A stretch of DNA of 20,351 nt, taken from a virus. Shown piece after piece: positions 2,484 to 20,097 of this stretch. The notes beneath the pieces were generated by a model, which was not told where the DNA came from, did no database searches, and saw only the letters and a list, made by a program, of their open reading frames with translations. Each line of letters opens with the position of its first letter. Position 1 is the stretch's first letter. Both the position numbers and the translations under genes were made by a program. The stretch lies in the IMG/VR virus record IMGVR_UViG_3300020400_000056, positions 1 to 20,351 of that record. One strand, written 5' to 3'.

Positions 2484-4069
2484 TAGAAAGGACCTCCGTG
2501 TCTTGGATTAACATTAGTTGATTTGCGTCCATAACCACCCACTTGTGTTGCACTGTCATCAATTTTGGCACCTACACCTGGCATACGTCTACCATTCATA
2601 TAATATTCACCACCGCCAATGCTAGTATTAAATTCTTCAACTTCTTCATCTGTAGATAATATCATTTCTGCAACATCTGGTGCAGGGTCTTTGTATTTTT
2701 GATTTTGACTTTGCCCTAAAATCATACCTGCGACATCTGGGACTGGATCTGTGTACTGATTACTTGCTCCTGTTGTTGTATTATTTTGTATATTAGTTAC
2801 ATCTATATCCGTTGCTAACAAATTACTGTCACTACTAGCACAACTAGGAATTTTCACTTGCTCTTCTGCATGTCCTCCCCAAGGCTCTGCTTCTGGTACT
2901 CTTCCTGTAATACTTTGTTTCACACTTCTATTTACAGTAATATTATTATTGGTTGTTTTAGTGCTTGCTGTAGCTGTTGGTCCGTTTAAATCTAATATAC
3001 CATCAGTCGTCATTCTTAAAAATCCTGCACATTTAATATGACCATTAAGATCACAGGTTAATTTAATATCCTTGTTACTGTGCAAATTGAATTCACCTGT
3101 TGCAGTTTCAATTTTACAACCATCTGATCCTCGTGCCTTCATTATAATACTATCTGCATCCAAAGCAAAATCTCCGCCTACATGCAAGTTAAAATCATTT
3201 TCAGTATGCATGCTAATATCACCACTGCTATACAAATCAATTTTACCATCATTACTCATTTGTAACCAACAGTTTCCTGCTTGATTAATTACATAAACTA
3301 TGCCAGCTGTATCATTAAAAAGTATTTGTGCTCCACCAGCACTGCGCCAACGACAAAGATTACTCAATCCTTCTTCTCTGTCTTTGTCAGGAGCAAGACA
3401 AGCATCACTGTTTTTTACTGTTCCATCATCCATTACAAAACTATGACCCATTGGTGTATTAAAACCAAACACGTTACTAGGTGATTCTCTTCTTGCACCA
3501 CTACTACCTAAACCTCTAACACTGTCCAATCCTAAACCCTGTTTAGCTACAAAATTGCTATTAGGATGTCTAGGTCTTTCTCCTTTGTTTTGTTTTTTTA
3601 CAATACTACTATCAAAAGTTGCTCCAATTGTATTAGTGCCATCATCTAAAAATGCTGTGACATTGTCAGGAACACTTCCGTTTCTAGTTGCGTCCGGCAA
3701 TACACCAAGCATTATACCTTCTTGGTCACTGCCTGTAAATGCAATTAATACTTCTGTTCCCGGAGCAGGAGGATGGCAATTCATACCAAATGTTCTAGTA
3801 TGATCCGATCCTTGATAGGTACCTCCGTAGGGCATTAATCTACGCACACGCACATACTTTTGTGCTTCTTCTTTACTTGTGGTAGGACTACCTGTTTTTT
3901 CATGTCCAATTATGTCCACGTACATGTAACCTTCGTATCTGTCATCTACTATATTCATTACTTTACCAATGTATAATCCTTGATAACTGTTTACACCACC
4001 AACTGCATCTTTTTTGTAGTAATGAGGTACTTGTAGTGTACTTTGCATTTTGTTTGTTGTATTATCCAT
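2483..4069 (-). CDS. 5: Baseplate central spike protein, gp5/VgrG-like (OB fold plus beta-helix)
   Basis: 528 residues. Residues ~30-125 look like the gp5 N-terminal OB domain: 'YIGKVMNIVDDRYEGYMYVD', then 'VRRLMPYGGTYQG', then 'PAPGTEVLIAFTGSDQEGIM'. Residues ~205-370 contain 'GHSFVMDDG' and a run of short alternating beta repeats (GDISMHTENDFNLHVGGDF and similar) typical of the gp5C/VgrG triple-stranded needle. No lysozyme domain lies between the two parts, unlike T4 gp5. The C-terminal tail (from ~435) is polar and holds two copies of a DPxPDVAxMIL motif. The protein should form the cell-puncturing tip under the hub. The ATG at 4069 is five bases after the hub stop, with only a weak AAGAAA-type ribosome site, which suggests translational coupling. 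Confidence 0.85.
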   Translation of the reverse strand: MDNTTNKMQSTLQVPHYYKKDAVGGVNSYQGLYIGKVMNIVDDRYEGYMYVDIIGHEKTGSPTTSKEEAQKYVRVRRLMPYGGTYQGSDHTRTFGMNCHPPAPGTEVLIAFTGSDQEGIMLGVLPDATRNGSVPDNVTAFLDDGTNTIGATFDSSIVKKQNKGERPRHPNSNFVAKQGLGLDSVRGLGSSGARRESPSNVFGFNTPMGHSFVMDDGTVKNSDACLAPDKDREEGLSNLCRWRSAGGAQILFNDTAGIVYVINQAGNCWLQMSNDGKIDLYSSGDISMHTENDFNLHVGGDFALDADSIIMKARGSDGCKIETATGEFNLHSNKDIKLTCDLNGHIKCAGFLRMTTDGILDLNGPTATASTKTTNNNITVNRSVKQSITGRVPEAEPWGGHAEEQVKIPSCASSDSNLLATDIDVTNIQNNTTTGASNQYTDPVPDVAGMILGQSQNQKYKDPAPDVAEMILSTDEEVEEFNTSIGGGEYYMNGRRMPGVGAKIDDSATQVGGYGRKSTNVNPRHGGPF

Positions 4070-12323: not shown

Positions 12324-12579
12324 TGATTATATTGTAGACTTAGAGCAGTTTAATAATAAAGGTTACAAAGGTGACGATGATTTCGATCACTGGTTGACTT
12401 ACGAAGCACCATTGGTAGATGTAAGTGTAAATTCCGATCCTATTACAGTCACCACAGCAAATATTCAATACAAAAACTGGCAACAAACAATGAGTAGTAG
12501 ACTACCAATTGATATTATGCATAAATTATACCCTAAACAAATGAAAGGACAAAATGATGACGACAACATTCCTTTTTGA
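12313..12579 (+). CDS. Small acidic protein of unknown function
   Basis: 88 residues, overlapping the previous gene by 11 bases, with a clear AGGAG (12303-12307) five bases before the ATG. It starts MDPDDYIVDLEQFNN, is acidic in its first third, and has 'SRLPIDIMHKLYPKQ' near residues 63-77, like the LPIDIFYKLF ending of the preceding protein. It ends in 'DDDNIPF', an acidic-hydrophobic tail resembling the C-terminal tips of single-stranded DNA-binding proteins. I do not recognise a family and the tail resemblance may be chance. Its own stop overlaps the next gene. Confidence 0.68.
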   Translation: MDPDDYIVDLEQFNNKGYKGDDDFDHWLTYEAPLVDVSVNSDPITVTTANIQYKNWQQTMSSRLPIDIMHKLYPKQMKGQNDDDNIPF

Positions 12580-13264
12580 TGTAGATGGTACACTTACAGA
12601 TGCACGTAAACCTATCAATCAAGACTTTGAACACTTTATGAAAGACTTTATAATGCGTGGTAATAAATGCATGATTATAACTGGTAGTGACAGACCAAAA
12701 ACTGTAGAACAGATTGGTTTAAGCCTTACTTTACGCTTTGCAAGGGTATATCATTGTAGCGGAAATCATGTGTTTGAAGACACTAAAGAGATCAAAAAGA
12801 ATGAATGGTTACTGTCAGATGAACAAAAAACATTTTTAACTGAATACTTACACAAAATTAATTATAATGAAATGACTGGTAATCATATAGAACAGCGTAT
12901 AGGTACTGCAAATTTTAGTATAGTAGGAAGAAATGCAAATTGGGCAGAACGTGATAGATATGCAAAATGGGATCAGATAAACAAAGGAAGAGAAACTGTT
13001 GCAATGTACTACAATCAACAGTTCAAAGATAGTGTAGCACAAGTAGCTGGAGAAACCAGTATAGATATATTTCCAGTAGGCTGTGACAAGAGTCAAGCCG
13101 TTAATGAACAAGAAGGTACAACTATATTTTTTGGAGACAATTGTTTTCCAGGCGGCAATGATTTTACAGCCGCACAAGCTAGCACATATTATCATCAAAT
13201 AGATGGTGGTTATAAGCAAACTTGGGAAATTTTAAAAAATACGTATATTTCGGTTGACAAATAG
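12554..13264 (+). CDS. Phosphomannomutase-like HAD hydrolase (eukaryotic-type PMM family)
   Basis: 236 residues. 'LFDVDGTLTDARKPI' (D9 nucleophile, D11 acid/base) is almost the motif of human PMM1/PMM2. 'TGSDRPKTVEQIG', 'FSIVGRNANWAER', 'SIDIFPVGCDK' and 'FFGDNCFPGGNDF' follow in the same order and spacing as in eukaryotic-type PMM. The family converts mannose-6-phosphate to mannose-1-phosphate for GDP-mannose synthesis, with a cap domain (roughly 85-185) binding the sugar. Differences: 'HCSGNHVF' replaces the usual ENG segment and 'RIGTANFS' the RxGMLN segment, so substrate may differ. ATGs at 12554 and 12557 both fit; the second is better spaced from the GGA at 12547. It overlaps the preceding gene by 26 bases and ends inside the next promoter. 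Confidence 0.88.
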   Translation: MMTTTFLFDVDGTLTDARKPINQDFEHFMKDFIMRGNKCMIITGSDRPKTVEQIGLSLTLRFARVYHCSGNHVFEDTKEIKKNEWLLSDEQKTFLTEYLHKINYNEMTGNHIEQRIGTANFSIVGRNANWAERDRYAKWDQINKGRETVAMYYNQQFKDSVAQVAGETSIDIFPVGCDKSQAVNEQEGTTIFFGDNCFPGGNDFTAAQASTYYHQIDGGYKQTWEILKNTYISVDK

Positions 13265-13283
13265 CTTAACTGGCATATATAGT
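13254..13283 (+). promoter_or_regulatory. Sigma70-type promoter before the GIY-YIG gene
   Basis: TTGACA at 13254-13259 overlaps the end of the phosphomannomutase gene. The -10 is TATATA (13276-13281, spacer 16) or TATAGT (13278-13283, spacer 18). The start would be near 13288, giving a short leader before the ATG at 13302. Confidence 0.68.
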
Positions 13284-13301: not shown

Positions 13302-13730
13302 ATGCAATGGACTTATCAAGGCAAAATAGTAGAACAAATATCAGAAGAATACGTGGGATTCGTATATCTAATTACTAATCTTACGAACGATAAAAAATAT
13401 ATTGGCAAAAAATTAGCACAATTTAAAGTAACTAAAAAACCCCTCAAAGGCAAAAAGAACAAAAGGCGTTCAACAAAAGAAAGTGATTGGAGAGACTATT
13501 GGGGATCCAGTGACACATTGAATGCAGACGTAGAAAACTTAGGCCCACAAAACTTTACCAGAGAAATACTGTATTACTGCACCAGCAGAGGTGAAATGAG
13601 CTACTTAGAAGCTCGTGAACAGTTTGATCGTAAAGTATTAGAAACTGATGAATATTACAACGGCATTATAAATGTACGAGTTGGCAGTTCTAAGGCACTT
13701 ATTGAATCACTAAACAGACACCAGTCATAA
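13302..13730 (+). CDS. GIY-YIG endonuclease-like protein (SegE type)
   Basis: 142 residues. After an N-terminal MQWTYQGKIVEQ comes 'GFVYLITNLTNDKKYIGKK', the GIY-YIG pair of strands (here FVY and YIG). Then a Lys/Arg-rich stretch (KPLKGKKNKRRS), 'SDWRDYWGSS', 'LGPQNFTREILYYC' and 'SYLEAREQF', and 'YYNGIINVRVG' near the end. This order matches phage SegE-like putative homing endonucleases. Many phage relatives may act in DNA repair or host DNA breakdown instead; nothing here shows intron or intein insertion. No strong ribosome site precedes the ATG. The WTYQG start matches the small protein at 12099. Confidence 0.8.
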   Translation: MQWTYQGKIVEQISEEYVGFVYLITNLTNDKKYIGKKLAQFKVTKKPLKGKKNKRRSTKESDWRDYWGSSDTLNADVENLGPQNFTREILYYCTSRGEMSYLEAREQFDRKVLETDEYYNGIINVRVGSSKALIESLNRHQS

Positions 13731-13740
13731 TATAGCTTCC

Positions 13741-13770
13741 TTGACTGTAGCATTGAGATTGTATTGTAAT
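13741..13770 (+). promoter_or_regulatory. Possible sigma70 promoter for the structured intergenic RNA
   Basis: TTGACT at 13741-13746 and TGTAAT at 13765-13770 with an 18-base spacer. It starts 11 bases after the GIY-YIG stop and would begin transcription near 13777, right where the G+C-rich foldable segment starts. It is weaker than the other TTGACA promoters here, but the placement is telling. Confidence 0.5.
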
Positions 13771-13776
13771 GATACT

Positions 13777-14025
13777 GTCGGATCTTGCTTGAAGCAAACA
13801 AACCAAACGAGTGGGCTCTACTGCGCCATTGTAACCCACGGATAGCTCAAAGGTCGTCGTTATGGCTGAGAGTGTTTCTGCGTTTAAGCAGTGCGTAAAG
13901 GGGTATAGCAAAACCGCCTCTGCCGAAAGGTTGCACTATAACGATGCTTTCTGGAGACGGGGTAATGACTCTGTTTTTTGCACTTGGCCGTAAACAGGCT
14001 AAGTGCGACTGAAAACAGGGTAATA
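13777..14025 (+). ncRNA. Candidate structured noncoding RNA between convergent genes
   Basis: No convincing reading frame occupies 13731-14096. Hand counting gives about 50% G+C for 13811-14020 against about 23% in 14021-14080 and about one third in nearby genes. Helices seen by eye: TTGCT/AGCAA (13785-13789 with 1393-13797, i.e. 13793-13797); GTGGG/CCCAC (13811-13815 with 13835-13839); a long stem AAAG plus CGTCGTTAT (13849-13863) with ATAACGATG plus CTTT (13938-13950), one G-U and a 2-base bulge; inside it CTGC/GCAG (13878-13891) and TATAG/CTATA (13904-13908 with 13936-13940); then CTCTGTTTT/AAAACAGGG (13969-13977 with 14012-14020) capped by a 10-bp stem (13980-13989 with 13997-14006). It does not match tRNA, tmRNA, RNase P or group I intron cores that I know. 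Strand is inferred from the promoter-like sequence upstream. Confidence 0.6.
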
Positions 14026-14050
14026 ACGAAATTAATCAAATAAAGAAATA

Positions 14051-14094
14051 TCAAACGAAATGAAATGAGTTTGACGATGAGCTTTAGCTCTTCG
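14051..14094. terminator. Two small hairpins between convergent transcripts
   Basis: TCAAAC/GTTTGA (14051-14056 with 14069-14074) is followed by CGA-T-GAGC-TTTA-GCTC-T-TCG (14075-14094). The second lies three bases beyond the minus-strand stop at 14097. Neither is followed directly by a T run on either strand, so an intrinsic terminator is only a possibility; they may belong to the structured RNA's 3' flank. Confidence 0.3.
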
Positions 14095-14096
14095 AT

Positions 14097-14360
14097 TTAG
14101 TATGTGATTGTTTTTTTAGGATTCATAGCTTCTTTGGTCTTTTTAGCTTTTTCCGACATGCGTTCTTGTATTTCTCTAAGTTCTCTAAAACTAATTCTAT
14201 ATAGGTTATCCAATTGAAATGCTCCTTCACTGTAAAGCACTACATCATAAAGCATATTTCTGATATCTTTATTTGTTGATTCATATTTGTCTATTATTTT
14301 TTGAATTAACTCTTCATTTCCCCTAGTGTCTCTAAGTTTTTGCTGAAAAAAAAAGCTGGG
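14097..14360 (-). CDS. -1 frame extension of the gp26-type gene (frameshift product tail)
   Basis: In the -1 frame relative to the upstream gene, stops lie just before 14360, then the frame is open to the TAA at 14099-14097. If ribosomes slip back one base on the T9 run (14354-14346), the product gains 82 residues after F276. They begin QQKLRDTRGNEELIQKIIDK and include 'LDNLYRISFRELREIQERM' and 'KAKKTKEAMNPKK', a sensible helical charged sequence. The fused protein would be 358 residues. There is no good internal start: the first ATG in this frame is about 30 codons in and has no ribosome site. Alternatives are an insertion/deletion error in the homopolymer, or a separate small gene. The minimum length of the listed open frame hides it because it lacks a start codon. 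Confidence 0.65.
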   Translation of the reverse strand, partial: PSFFFQQKLRDTRGNEELIQKIIDKYESTNKDIRNMLYDVVLYSEGAFQLDNLYRISFRELREIQERMSEKAKKTKEAMNPKKTITY

Positions 14361-15232: not shown

Positions 15233-17188
15233 ATGGCAACTATCAATATTCCAGGACCAAGTGGACAAGCAATACCAATCGAAGTACCTGATTTTGCAAT
15301 GGAACAGACCCAAGAAAGGGTTTTAGGAGTAATGACTGACATAGCGGCACAGTTAGGTGCTGATGTAAGTGAACAGGATCAACAGTCAAAGACACTTGGA
15401 CAAATACTACGTGCTGAAAAAGAAGCAAACAATAAAGCCAGTAAAGAAAGAGATAATCTAGCAAAAGATTTTCGAAAGTATGGTAAGACACAACTAGACA
15501 ACATACAAAGTGCTATGTTCAGTAAAACTGAAGTAACAGGTATGATACAAAATACTCTATCAGCATTGGGTGCACCAGCACTAATGGGTACTACATTTGG
15601 TTTAATCATGCAACAAGCACAAGAAGTAGGTGATGCTTTTAGAGTTGGTGGTAGAGTTGGATTAAATTTTGCAGACAATTTATTAGAAGTTACAGGCACA
15701 CTTGCAACTGCTGGATTGGATCTAGGATCATTCAGTCAAATTGTAGGTACAAATGTTGCGGCAGTGAGACAGTTTGCTGATACAACACAACAAGGTAGCA
15801 TGCGTCTAATGAACATGATAACAGGTTTTAGAACAGCCGCAGAAGGTTTTGGAAATTTTGGACTAACTAGCGGACAAGCCGCAGAACTTATGGCTGAAGA
15901 ACTAGAACTAAGACGTTTGACTATGGATGTTGAAAGTTTTAGAAATTTAAAAGAACAAGAACTTGTAGATGCAATGGTGCAAAATATTGCACAACAAGAG
16001 GCAATGGCAAAAATTACAGGACAAGATGTAAAACAGCGTATAAAAGCACAAATGGAAGCACGTAAAGATGCTGTAGCACAATCATTTTTAAGGACAGCAA
16101 GTGAAGATACAAGGAAAAAATTTAATGAGCTAGCCGCGGCAGTGGAAAATATTCCTGGTGGAGGTGAACTATCAAAAGCTATACTAAACAGTGTGGCAAC
16201 TGGAGGTGCAGTAGATGCGGCGGCATTTGCTCCGCAACTAATAGGAGAATTAGGATCAGCTGGTAGAAACTTGATAGACTTTGTTGTTGGTAACATGAAC
16301 AATAGCAGTATGAGTGCAATAGATTTTGCTTCAGGTATGACTGAAGCCATATCCGACATTAAAACAAGTCAAGTTGATAGAGAAGAAGCACTTAGAGTAA
16401 GAGCGGCATTTGGAGATGAAACTGCAAGAACACTATTAACTTTGTCTTCTGAAATTGTAGATGCAGGTAACGATGTAGCTAAACGTATGATAACAACATT
16501 GGCAAATGTTGAAGACGCACAAGGTGACTATGCTTCAAGAGCTAGAGGCATTGCATCTCAATTAGAACAAACTGAAATGCAGTTTCAAAATCTTATTTTG
16601 CGTATGACGGATAGAATGGGATTTGCGGCTACAGGTCAAAATGTAGGTGCTTCTGGTATGATACTAGAATTACAAGACATGTTGCAAGCTGGATTAAGTT
16701 CTGATGTATTAACAAATATTTTTGAAACTGTAGGACGTGGTGCTGGATCTATGTTTATGGGACCAATTGCCAAAATGGGCAGAGGCGAACTCACAGGTGC
16801 AGATAGTGAAAGTGCTATGCTAATTGGTATGCTAATGCGTGGTTTTCCTGGACCAATGGGCACTATGGGTACTGCTTTAATGGTTCCTCAAGGAATCAAA
16901 GCTCTTGGAGACATGGTCAAAGAACTTACTAAATTATCTGATGCACAAATGAGAGAATTAGAGGAAACTGGCACTTATCAAGAAACAGAATTACAAAAAC
17001 TTGCTAAGAAATTTGGTGTAACTATTGAAAATCAAGAACGCATGGCGGCAGAGGAAGAAGAAAGAAGAAGAACACAAAATGAACTAAGAGGTAATGCAGA
17101 AACTATTGTAAAATTATTACCTGAAGATATTAAAAGATTAGCAGATGAGATTAACAGACGCAATGCAGAACATAACAATACCAATTAA
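15233..17188 (+). CDS. Putative tail tape-measure protein (gp29-like role)
   Basis: 651 residues, almost wholly helical in character. It has a charged N-terminal segment (~50-90), an Ala/Gly-rich hydrophobic part (~105-165, with 'LGAPALMGTTFGLIMQQAQ'), long amphipathic helices (~190-300), a second Gly/Met-rich hydrophobic part (~495-560, with 'MGPIAKMGRG' and 'GFPGPMGTMGTALM'), and a charged helical end (~565-651, with 'EEEERRRTQNE'). Large helical proteins with hydrophobic patches next to tail assembly chaperone genes are typically tape measures. Its length is close to T4 gp29 (590), which sets a ~100 nm tail. I see no signature motif, so another virion protein is possible. The ribosome site is weak; a late promoter lies upstream. 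Confidence 0.5.
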   Translation: MATINIPGPSGQAIPIEVPDFAMEQTQERVLGVMTDIAAQLGADVSEQDQQSKTLGQILRAEKEANNKASKERDNLAKDFRKYGKTQLDNIQSAMFSKTEVTGMIQNTLSALGAPALMGTTFGLIMQQAQEVGDAFRVGGRVGLNFADNLLEVTGTLATAGLDLGSFSQIVGTNVAAVRQFADTTQQGSMRLMNMITGFRTAAEGFGNFGLTSGQAAELMAEELELRRLTMDVESFRNLKEQELVDAMVQNIAQQEAMAKITGQDVKQRIKAQMEARKDAVAQSFLRTASEDTRKKFNELAAAVENIPGGGELSKAILNSVATGGAVDAAAFAPQLIGELGSAGRNLIDFVVGNMNNSSMSAIDFASGMTEAISDIKTSQVDREEALRVRAAFGDETARTLLTLSSEIVDAGNDVAKRMITTLANVEDAQGDYASRARGIASQLEQTEMQFQNLILRMTDRMGFAATGQNVGASGMILELQDMLQAGLSSDVLTNIFETVGRGAGSMFMGPIAKMGRGELTGADSESAMLIGMLMRGFPGPMGTMGTALMVPQGIKALGDMVKELTKLSDAQMRELEETGTYQETELQKLAKKFGVTIENQERMAAEEEERRRTQNELRGNAETIVKLLPEDIKRLADEINRRNAEHNNTN

Positions 17189-19257: not shown

Positions 19258-20097
19258 ATGAGCGAACACAAGGAATCTTTAGTTAAGGTCCTTGAATATA
19301 TCGTAAACGACGAGCAAGACAAAGCCGCCGATCTTCTTCATAATGTTTTTGTAGAAAAAGCCAAATCACATTGGTCAAGTCTACAAGAAAATGATGAAGT
19401 AGTAGAAGACGAAATTCAAGAAGACGACCTAGATGAAACTATCGATCTTGATGAAGCTGACGAAGATTCAAAGGACGAAGCTGAAGTAGAGGAAGCAGTA
19501 GATGCTTCAGATGCAGAAGAAGATTTCCTTGATGATATCGAAACAGCCGAAGAAGAGATCAATGATGAAGAAATCATGGACGATGATGACATGGAAGATG
19601 AAGAAATGGCAGAGCCAGAAATGGATCTAGCTATGGACATGGAACCTGAAGCAGAAGGCGAAGGCGAAATGGACGGAGAATCAGATGCAGAAGAAGCAAT
19701 GGATAACGTAGAAGATGCAATTGCAGAATTACGTGCCGCTTTTGCTGATATGATGGGTGATAAAGAAGAAATGGATGAGCCAGAAATGGAAGAATCAGCA
19801 GAACCAGTTGAAGAAACTGAAGAAGTTGAAGCTGTCGAAGAAGGCGCTGAAATGAAATCTGTAAATGTTACACACAGTGACACAGCTGATAAAGCATCAC
19901 CAGTAGCTGGAAACGCAAGTGCACCAACAGGCGCAACTGCACACAAAGCCCCAGGCGGAGACGAAAAGGGAAGACCTGCTCCAACTGCTGAAGGTATGGG
20001 TGTAGATGGGCCACAAGAAGCTGGTTCACCTAGTGCGGCTCCAAAGCCAAAAGCTGAAGTTACTAAGTCAGACAGTCCAATTAGAGGAATGAAGTAA
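19258..20097 (+). CDS. Acidic prohead core (scaffold) protein, gp67/gp68-like role
   Basis: 279 residues. The N-terminal ~45 residues, 'LVKVLEYIVNDEQDKAADLL' then 'FVEKAKSHWSSLQ', form a helical segment like those of T4-like prohead core proteins. Residues ~45-195 are extremely Glu/Asp-rich with repeated EEM/DEE runs. Residues ~200-279 are Ala/Pro/Gly-rich, ending 'KSDSPIRGMK'. In T4 the core proteins between gp20 and gp21 fill the prohead and are cut to small peptides by gp21, the next gene here; several 'xxE-A' type bonds suitable for such cutting occur. It is much longer than T4 gp67 (80), so it may replace the major scaffold or an internal protein. A strong AAGGAG site eight bases upstream suggests high expression. 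The low-complexity part blocks a firm family call. Confidence 0.7.
   Translation: MSEHKESLVKVLEYIVNDEQDKAADLLHNVFVEKAKSHWSSLQENDEVVEDEIQEDDLDETIDLDEADEDSKDEAEVEEAVDASDAEEDFLDDIETAEEEINDEEIMDDDDMEDEEMAEPEMDLAMDMEPEAEGEGEMDGESDAEEAMDNVEDAIAELRAAFADMMGDKEEMDEPEMEESAEPVEETEEVEAVEEGAEMKSVNVTHSDTADKASPVAGNASAPTGATAHKAPGGDEKGRPAPTAEGMGVDGPQEAGSPSAAPKPKAEVTKSDSPIRGMK

Follow-up and report, generated by a model that had tools for sequence, protein, structure and literature searches.

Structured RNAs of a few hundred bases that lie directly beside a small endonuclease gene are exemplified by the HEARO or omega RNAs, which accompany IscB and its relatives and of which HEARO constitutes an Rfam family. 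Group I introns often carry GIY-YIG nucleases. In this work we describe a pseudoknotted, conserved and noncoding RNA of ~295 bases that occurs once per phage at a fixed locus in a large group of marine T4-like phages. Like the HEARO and omega RNAs it is a structured RNA of a few hundred bases adjoining a small endonuclease gene; however, the nuclease of those systems is of the HNH/RuvC type whereas its neighbour here is a GIY-YIG gene, and it further differs in following that gene, in keeping a fixed locus, in lacking an Rfam match and in belonging to a nuclease that occurs RNA-less in cultured phages. With group I introns it shares the linkage of a GIY-YIG gene to a structured RNA with crossing helices, but it is intergenic, has no intron match and, by comparison with what is generally known of those introns, presents its helices in another order.

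Among RNAs encoded by phages themselves, GOLLD and ROOL are likewise large, pseudoknotted and of no assigned function. Sections of one account describe GOLLD as conserved in its 3' part and variable in its 5' part, and give lengths of 659 nt for ROOL in one case and of more than 800 for many GOLLD RNAs (PMC12286853). The RNA described here is half as long or shorter and has no Rfam match; it adjoins a GIY-YIG nuclease gene and has twin words, whereas GOLLD and ROOL lie near tRNA islands, and their defining trait is a homo-oligomeric RNA cage. The marine T4-like phage Melnitz carries, according to sections of its description, a two-piece tmRNA with a glnA riboswitch (PMC9004378). It offers another structured RNA in a marine T4-like phage, whose SegE is 73-76% identical to the one studied here, but it differs in that tmRNA is absent from our sequence and Melnitz has no match to the new RNA. 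No such RNA was described in the open literature as searched by title and start of abstract, a scope that has subscription papers and most preprints outside it, and a prior description is possible.

Results

A conserved noncoding RNA downstream of segE

The window analyzed here is the whole stretch of 20,351 nucleotides of a viral record (IMGVR_UViG_3300020400_000056), in which an earlier note, made from the letters of the sequence, had proposed an undescribed structured RNA at 13777-14025. The features of the locus are as follows.

13254-13283 (+): predicted sigma-70-like promoter upstream of segE, TTGACA-18-TATAGT, 11 of 12 consensus bases
13302-13730 (+): segE-like GIY-YIG endonuclease gene, 142 aa, directly upstream of the RNA (Pfam SegE_GIY-YIG, E 1.3e-35, residues 3-123)
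13733-14027 (+): class A structured RNA, defined by alignments of 38 relatives, covariation and a match to the core model (CM) R1
13735-13795 (+): P1, 13735-13739 with 13791-13795, enclosing hairpin P2 (13761-13775); 5 of 5 pairs in 37 of 38 sequences
13811-13839 (+): P3 hairpin, 9 pairs, 6 with both-side changes, 99.1% of cells paired; also found by RNAalifold
13841-13878 (+): P4/P4b hairpin, 2 + 4 + 3 pairs, 7 with both-side changes, its loop carrying the 5' strand of the pseudoknot
13857-13944 (+): PK1 pseudoknot helix, 13857-13862 with 13939-13944, 6 pairs, 4 with both-side changes, 97.4% paired; also found by RNAalifold
13880-13917 (+): P6, GCGUU with AACCGC, crossing P8; 6 pairs, 100% paired, 2 with both-side changes
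13890-13937 (+): P8, 13890-13894 with 13933-13937, enclosing P9; 5 pairs, 4 with both-side changes, 83.2% paired
13960-13969 (+): first twin-word copy, GGGTAATGAC, from the sequence and word concordance across relatives
13978-14008 (+): P11, the 3' hairpin, 13978-13989 with 13997-14008, 12 pairs, 99.8% paired
14018-14027 (+): second twin-word copy, GGGTAATAAC, 58 bases after the first, on the same evidence

Relatives were gathered through a SegE protein search, from which the best 80 of 590 related viral loci (designated by L and a number) were taken. Comparison of 13700-14120 with these by blastn gave matches in 22 of the 80, among which L021 matched only at a hairpin 3' of the RNA and some others partially, at contig ends; in an alignment of the window with 15 matched loci, conservation extended from just past the segE stop codon to ~14027. 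The class A core pattern TAAAGGGGTNNNGCNNNACCGCCTCT occurs in 98 stretches of IMG/VR and in none of 84,980 prokaryote species genomes. Its 98 full-length copies (window included, some contigs twice) reduced to 66 distinct sequences and to 38 representatives of less than 95% similarity, and the other 28 distinct copies were omitted from structure counts. Searches of a phage collection by blastn found no relative of class A or of the classes B and D introduced below, one search giving only four chance matches. The class A RNA is single-copy in all six long contigs (46-198 kb).

The RNA begins 2-4 bases past the segE stop codon, and R1, whose training set includes the window, matches it at 13796-13950 with E 2.4e-42. 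The element proposed earlier is real but longer than first drawn: its start is moved ~45 bases 5', to ~13733, because the 5-bp helix P1 closes its 5' end. G+C content of 13777-14025 is 48.2%, close to the 50% previously given, against 35.2% for the window and 28-29% immediately 3', a flank that is indeed poorer but slightly less so than the 23% first claimed; elsewhere in the window, 249-base stretches of equal G+C richness are confined to one region within a long ORF, with starts at 19764-19883. No reading frame across the RNA is open throughout all 38 relatives, and the element is noncoding in them, as had been supposed. Folding of the single sequence exceeds shuffled controls modestly (z -2.64, 4 of 200 shuffles as good).

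None of the 4227 families of Rfam 15 matched at gathering score, either in the window or in a set of 19 loci that carry RNAs of classes A, B and D, and up to E = 10 these classes gave chance-level matches only, mostly to models of eukaryotic snoRNAs and miRNAs; the weak matches of snoRNA type at 13958-14105 were far below gathering and at chance level. The RNA family is new in that it matches no catalogued one, which, together with conserved sequence and the covariation given below, strongly supports the original proposal. The exclusions made in the earlier note also stand: ARAGORN finds 0 tRNA or tmRNA genes in the window and Rfam no tmRNA, and a group I intron is rejected since the RNA is intergenic, between segE (+) and a minus-strand gene, with no Rfam match.

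Covariation supports a pseudoknotted core

The core structure was named from a covariation scan and was evaluated on core alignment A2, comprising the 38 class A relatives, which are the sequences it was derived from. Of 1471 cells, 93.1% are paired, and 26 of 39 pairs show changes on both sides, with 219 both-side-change cells observed vs 72.5 in shuffles. On four of five measures none of 500 shuffles reached the observed values; on the fifth, the count of additional pair types, 462 of 500 did. When the partner strand was slid by 1-3 bases, paired cells fell to 34-43% and both-side pairs to 2-5; the structure is favored over its slid versions because it was derived from these sequences, but the gap is nonetheless very large. 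Compensatory changes beyond chance and the lack of a conserved frame identify this element as a structured noncoding RNA, and its core of crossing helices, that is, pseudoknots, is strongly supported by covariation. This core takes the place of the 13-bp multibranched stem drawn from the single sequence, which the covariation does not bear out, while the GAAA loop suspected there was recovered as a CC-GAAA-GG hairpin at 13923-13930, which is P9 in the window.

Individual helices vary in ways that preserve pairing. The P3 stem reads GUGGG/CCCAC in the window and CCAGG/CCUGG in relatives, and one P6 pair is UA in 19 sequences and GC in 18. P4b is paired in 70.4% of cells, partly because sequences with a two-base insertion sit one column off in the alignment. 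Supplied with no structure, RNAalifold picks P3 and PK1 plus two stems outside the named model; the invariant AGGGGU/GCCUCU pairing that it proposes overlaps P6 and is a candidate alternative. At the 5' end, P1 is formed by stems CCCTC, CCCCC, GCTTC, TCCTC, GCCTC and TCCCC with their complements, the 38th sequence (L105) having CCCTC/GAGGG by eye, and P2 pairs vary on both sides. The 3' hairpin recognized earlier is strong and real, although redrawn as the 12 pairs of P11, of which one is changed on both sides, five on one side and the others mostly invariant. A further helix, P2' (13750-13753 with 13944-13947), is possible: it is 94.1% paired with zero both-side changes and competes with PK1 for one base. 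Tested jointly, P2', P2 and P11 have 3 both-side pairs, not above shuffles (283 of 500).

The segE locus and its predicted promoter

SegE of the window retains the GIY-YIG core and active-site residues. Its match to an NCBIfam model for group I intron endonucleases is weak (E 2.5e-5, 24 bits vs a cut-off of 56), and by sequence it has no PDB relative at E up to 1. The gene lies directly upstream in 63 of 69 class A elements (114 copies minus near-identical ones), and the other six have <240 bases of upstream sequence. Gene order is kept as gp55-gp47-gp46-(HAD gene in many)-segE-RNA-...-gp26-...-gp20; in the divergent group of L020, L095 and L121 no HAD gene was found in the gp46-segE interval and gp26 is farther, with segE and the RNA still adjacent. 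The window's own HAD-superfamily gene, at 12554-13264 between gp46 and segE, resembles phosphomannomutase in its Pfam match (E 4e-22). A 651-aa ORF (15233-17188), whose position is kept in relatives, lies between the gp26-like gene and gp20 and has no match in Pfam, PHROGs or NCBIfam.

The earlier note had assigned the RNA an early promoter of its own, TTGACT-18-TGTAAT. This sequence is rejected as a promoter, as it lies inside the RNA (in the P1 helix and the hairpin it encloses), is absent from promoter-scan sites, and its TTGACT is not kept among aligned relatives. The sigma-70-like sequence at 13254-13283 is instead the likely promoter of both segE and the RNA. Among 54 segE loci examined, 17 had sites with at least 10 of 12 consensus bases, each at the same position and each in a near relative of the window; the other 37 lacked them. 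Since the predicted promoter precedes segE and is conserved in near relatives, the gene and the RNA are probably one transcription unit, and the motif suggests early expression by the host polymerase in the window's subgroup.

Related RNA classes and their inheritance

G+C-rich stretches also follow segE at loci without the class A pattern, where the conserved sequences differ. After 23 of the best 80 of 590 loci were dropped for having too little downstream sequence, 57 remained, chosen by protein similarity alone, to which patterns assigned 14 class A, 32 class B and 6 class D RNAs and 5 none. Four of the unassigned (L029, L052, L055 and L062) carry, by eye, a class B RNA in which the pattern is altered by base changes, and L078 has no such RNA in the 750 bases after segE; a structured RNA is thus present at 56 of 57 loci (A 14, B 36, D 6). 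The class B pattern is found in at least 120 stretches, with segE upstream on the same strand in 109 of 117 distinct elements and at most 365 bases of upstream sequence in the other eight. Among 78 class B sequences, counted without a shuffle control, one helix of 5 pairs has 4 pairs changed on both sides in at least 2 sequences each, and a second of 4 pairs has 3 such pairs. Class D is related to class A, the core model of which aligns along its whole length with L074, L080 (both E 7e-4) and L081 (E 2e-3), these E-values being rough. By eye, 5' domains and cores occur in varying combinations between loci.

On a gp46 tree of 143 rows, found mostly through RNA patterns so that RNA-less phages are under-sampled, class labels require 5-6 changes vs 42 in shuffles, which indicates mostly vertical inheritance and hence that allele replacement is rare. 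Two changes are needed for class A, since L021 has a class B RNA despite its place inside the class A clade, and three for class D. SegE of L021 is 86% identical to that of the window, yet adjoins class B RNA. L021 (4419-4679) and L056 (4422-4685) each have an ORF of 86-87 aa intervening between segE and the RNA and overlapping the end of the gene. The cultured phages Melnitz, S-SRM01, phiM12 and Moby possess SegE but lack an R1 core-model match anywhere in their records, and after segE there is no room or no such sequence.

Twin words change together

The RNAs fall into at least three sequence classes, and A, B and D have a common 3' module, consisting of a hairpin between two copies of a short word of 6-7 bases that varies between phages and is of GGTAAT type in class A of the window, of ACATGAA type in class B, and GAATAAT or AGATGAT in class D. 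The repeated 10-mer seen earlier in the window is the class A instance, its first copy placed correctly and its second at 14018-14027 rather than from 14019. Among 95 parsed distinct class B domains, 94 have identical 7-base words in both places; the words of the exception, L286, differ at one base, and two further unparsed domains are equal by eye. Ten different words occur among 102 equal ones. When domains are reduced to types of word pair, 25 of 26 agree over seven bases, compared with a permuted mean of 11.0 and maximum of 17 in 2000 permutations, a comparison for which the parser missed 12 domains and which counts related phages as separate, ignoring relatedness. Agreement stops at the eighth base (50%). 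Over six bases, 48 of 51 class A elements have equal words (47 with GGTAAT twice, one with GGAAAT twice), and the remaining three pair GACAAA with GCCAAA, so that both words have changed together but differ at one base. By a looser measure, the longest common stretch is 7.2 within an element vs 6.0 between elements of different words. Spacing in class B is nearly constant, mostly 56-59 bases, with 58 in the window.

Phage flanks showed no enrichment of the words (84 observed vs 120 expected) or their complements (29 vs 75), and the 10-base class A word has no further occurrence outside the RNA in six long contigs. Pairing of the words with a complement in the same RNA was considered and found unconvincing: in the best 15-base bin 15 of 102 class B elements have wobble complements, and 7 of 29 with a minority word.

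Discussion

We favor, at a probability of about 0.5 for the statement as a whole, a trans-acting phage RNA that is expressed with segE and whose twin words dock a putative partner. The RNA would be transcribed together with segE, in the window's subgroup from a host-type sigma-70 promoter that would probably confer early transcription, and would work in trans, as an independent RNA. Its pseudoknotted body may serve as a scaffold; the identical words on either side of the 3' hairpin, at a distance of 58 bases, may be docking sites for one partner, whether protein or RNA. The specificity of that partner would differ between phage lineages, so that both copies of the word must change together, and the adjacent nuclease gene may promote the replacement of one RNA allele by another when phages co-infect. 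We count in favor of this proposal the replacement of one class by another with the locus kept, as in L021, where class B stands within the class A clade.

Two alternatives would dispense with a trans-acting RNA. The first treats the RNA as a mere tail of the segE mRNA, a cis-acting 3' untranslated region that protects against exonucleases or tunes expression; this would agree with a class A RNA that begins a few bases past the segE stop codon and, wherever the flank reaches segE, with an RNA that follows it on the same strand. However, an ORF of 86-87 aa intervenes in L021 and L056, segE-to-core distances are 347-573 in 11 of 109 class B elements, and an invariant pseudoknotted core with lineage-specific twin words exceeds the needs of a decay block, so that we regard a cis-acting role as unlikely. 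If the element instead worked as DNA, with the hairpins acting at the DNA level and the words bound by a phage protein of replication or recombination, direct repeats at near-constant spacing would be in keeping, and their co-variation would resemble that of sites for a diverging DNA-binding protein; but in the six long contigs the repeats occur only at the RNA, and G-U intermediates among the pair changes, together with pseudoknots, point to RNA, making a DNA-level element quite improbable.

Other alternatives give the nuclease gene a larger part. By analogy with IscB and its omega RNA, the 142-aa GIY-YIG protein might use the RNA as a cofactor or guide, a ribonucleoprotein suggested by the near-invariable adjacency of gene and RNA, by the retained active-site residues, by a Pfam domain that fills residues 3-123 and leaves no separate DNA-binding domain in Pfam terms, and by lineage-specific words that resemble specificity elements. 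The occurrence of SegE without an R1 match in Melnitz, S-SRM01, phiM12 and Moby disfavors an RNA-guided SegE, near-same SegE proteins adjoin different RNA classes (86% identity for L021, class B), and targets for the words were not found in phage flanks or six long contigs; overall we hold it to be improbable. There is also a slim chance that the RNA is a ribozyme or the remnant of an intron, with a catalytic core derived, for example, from a group I intron whose endonuclease gene was segE. GIY-YIG nucleases are common in such introns, SegE weakly matches the intron endonuclease model, and the crossing P6/P8 and PK1 form a compact core; against this, no intron or ribozyme family of Rfam matches classes A, B and D up to E = 10, the unit is intergenic rather than set within a gene, and its helix order, P6a-P8a-P6b-P9-P8b, does not include the P4-P6 domain familiar from group I introns.

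Very doubtful is the further proposal that the RNA and SegE are a new kind of RNA-directed nuclease whose specificity is set by the twin lineage-specific words. If true, a large pseudoknotted RNA would bear a minimal GIY-YIG enzyme of 142 aa, and phages would deploy the pair against the host or against rival phages and pass it among themselves as a module. The RNAs described here form a superfamily that is abundant in marine T4-like phages (IMG/VR has 98 class A stretches and at least 120 of class B), that no Rfam family represents, and that is linked to a nuclease gene and to a conserved locus. That the two words of a pair change in step is an unusual clue and one open to direct testing, as any reader of the words must follow.

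Further observations around the locus include a GGTAAGTA motif that closely precedes the start codon of segE at many class B loci (in L033, for example, near 3985-4003) and was not seen in the window's relatives. In L007, L148 and several other class A relatives the first word lies in a possible hairpin loop followed by 7-9 T, resembling an intrinsic terminator within the RNA; no terminator was called in the window itself. A hairpin-rich stretch 3' of the RNA (14045-14096) is 96% identical over 52 bases to 5040-5091 of L021, a locus with a different RNA class, and is perhaps a terminator between convergent genes. Finally, the class B pattern was found in the genome collection in two contigs of one Neomarinimicrobiota MAG (RS350), a model scan of which gave one weak match (E 0.25). 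These contigs (L326 and L327, of 335 kb and 153 kb) carry T4-like phage genes alongside the class B RNA, and the bin therefore holds phage sequence, possibly that of a very large phage.
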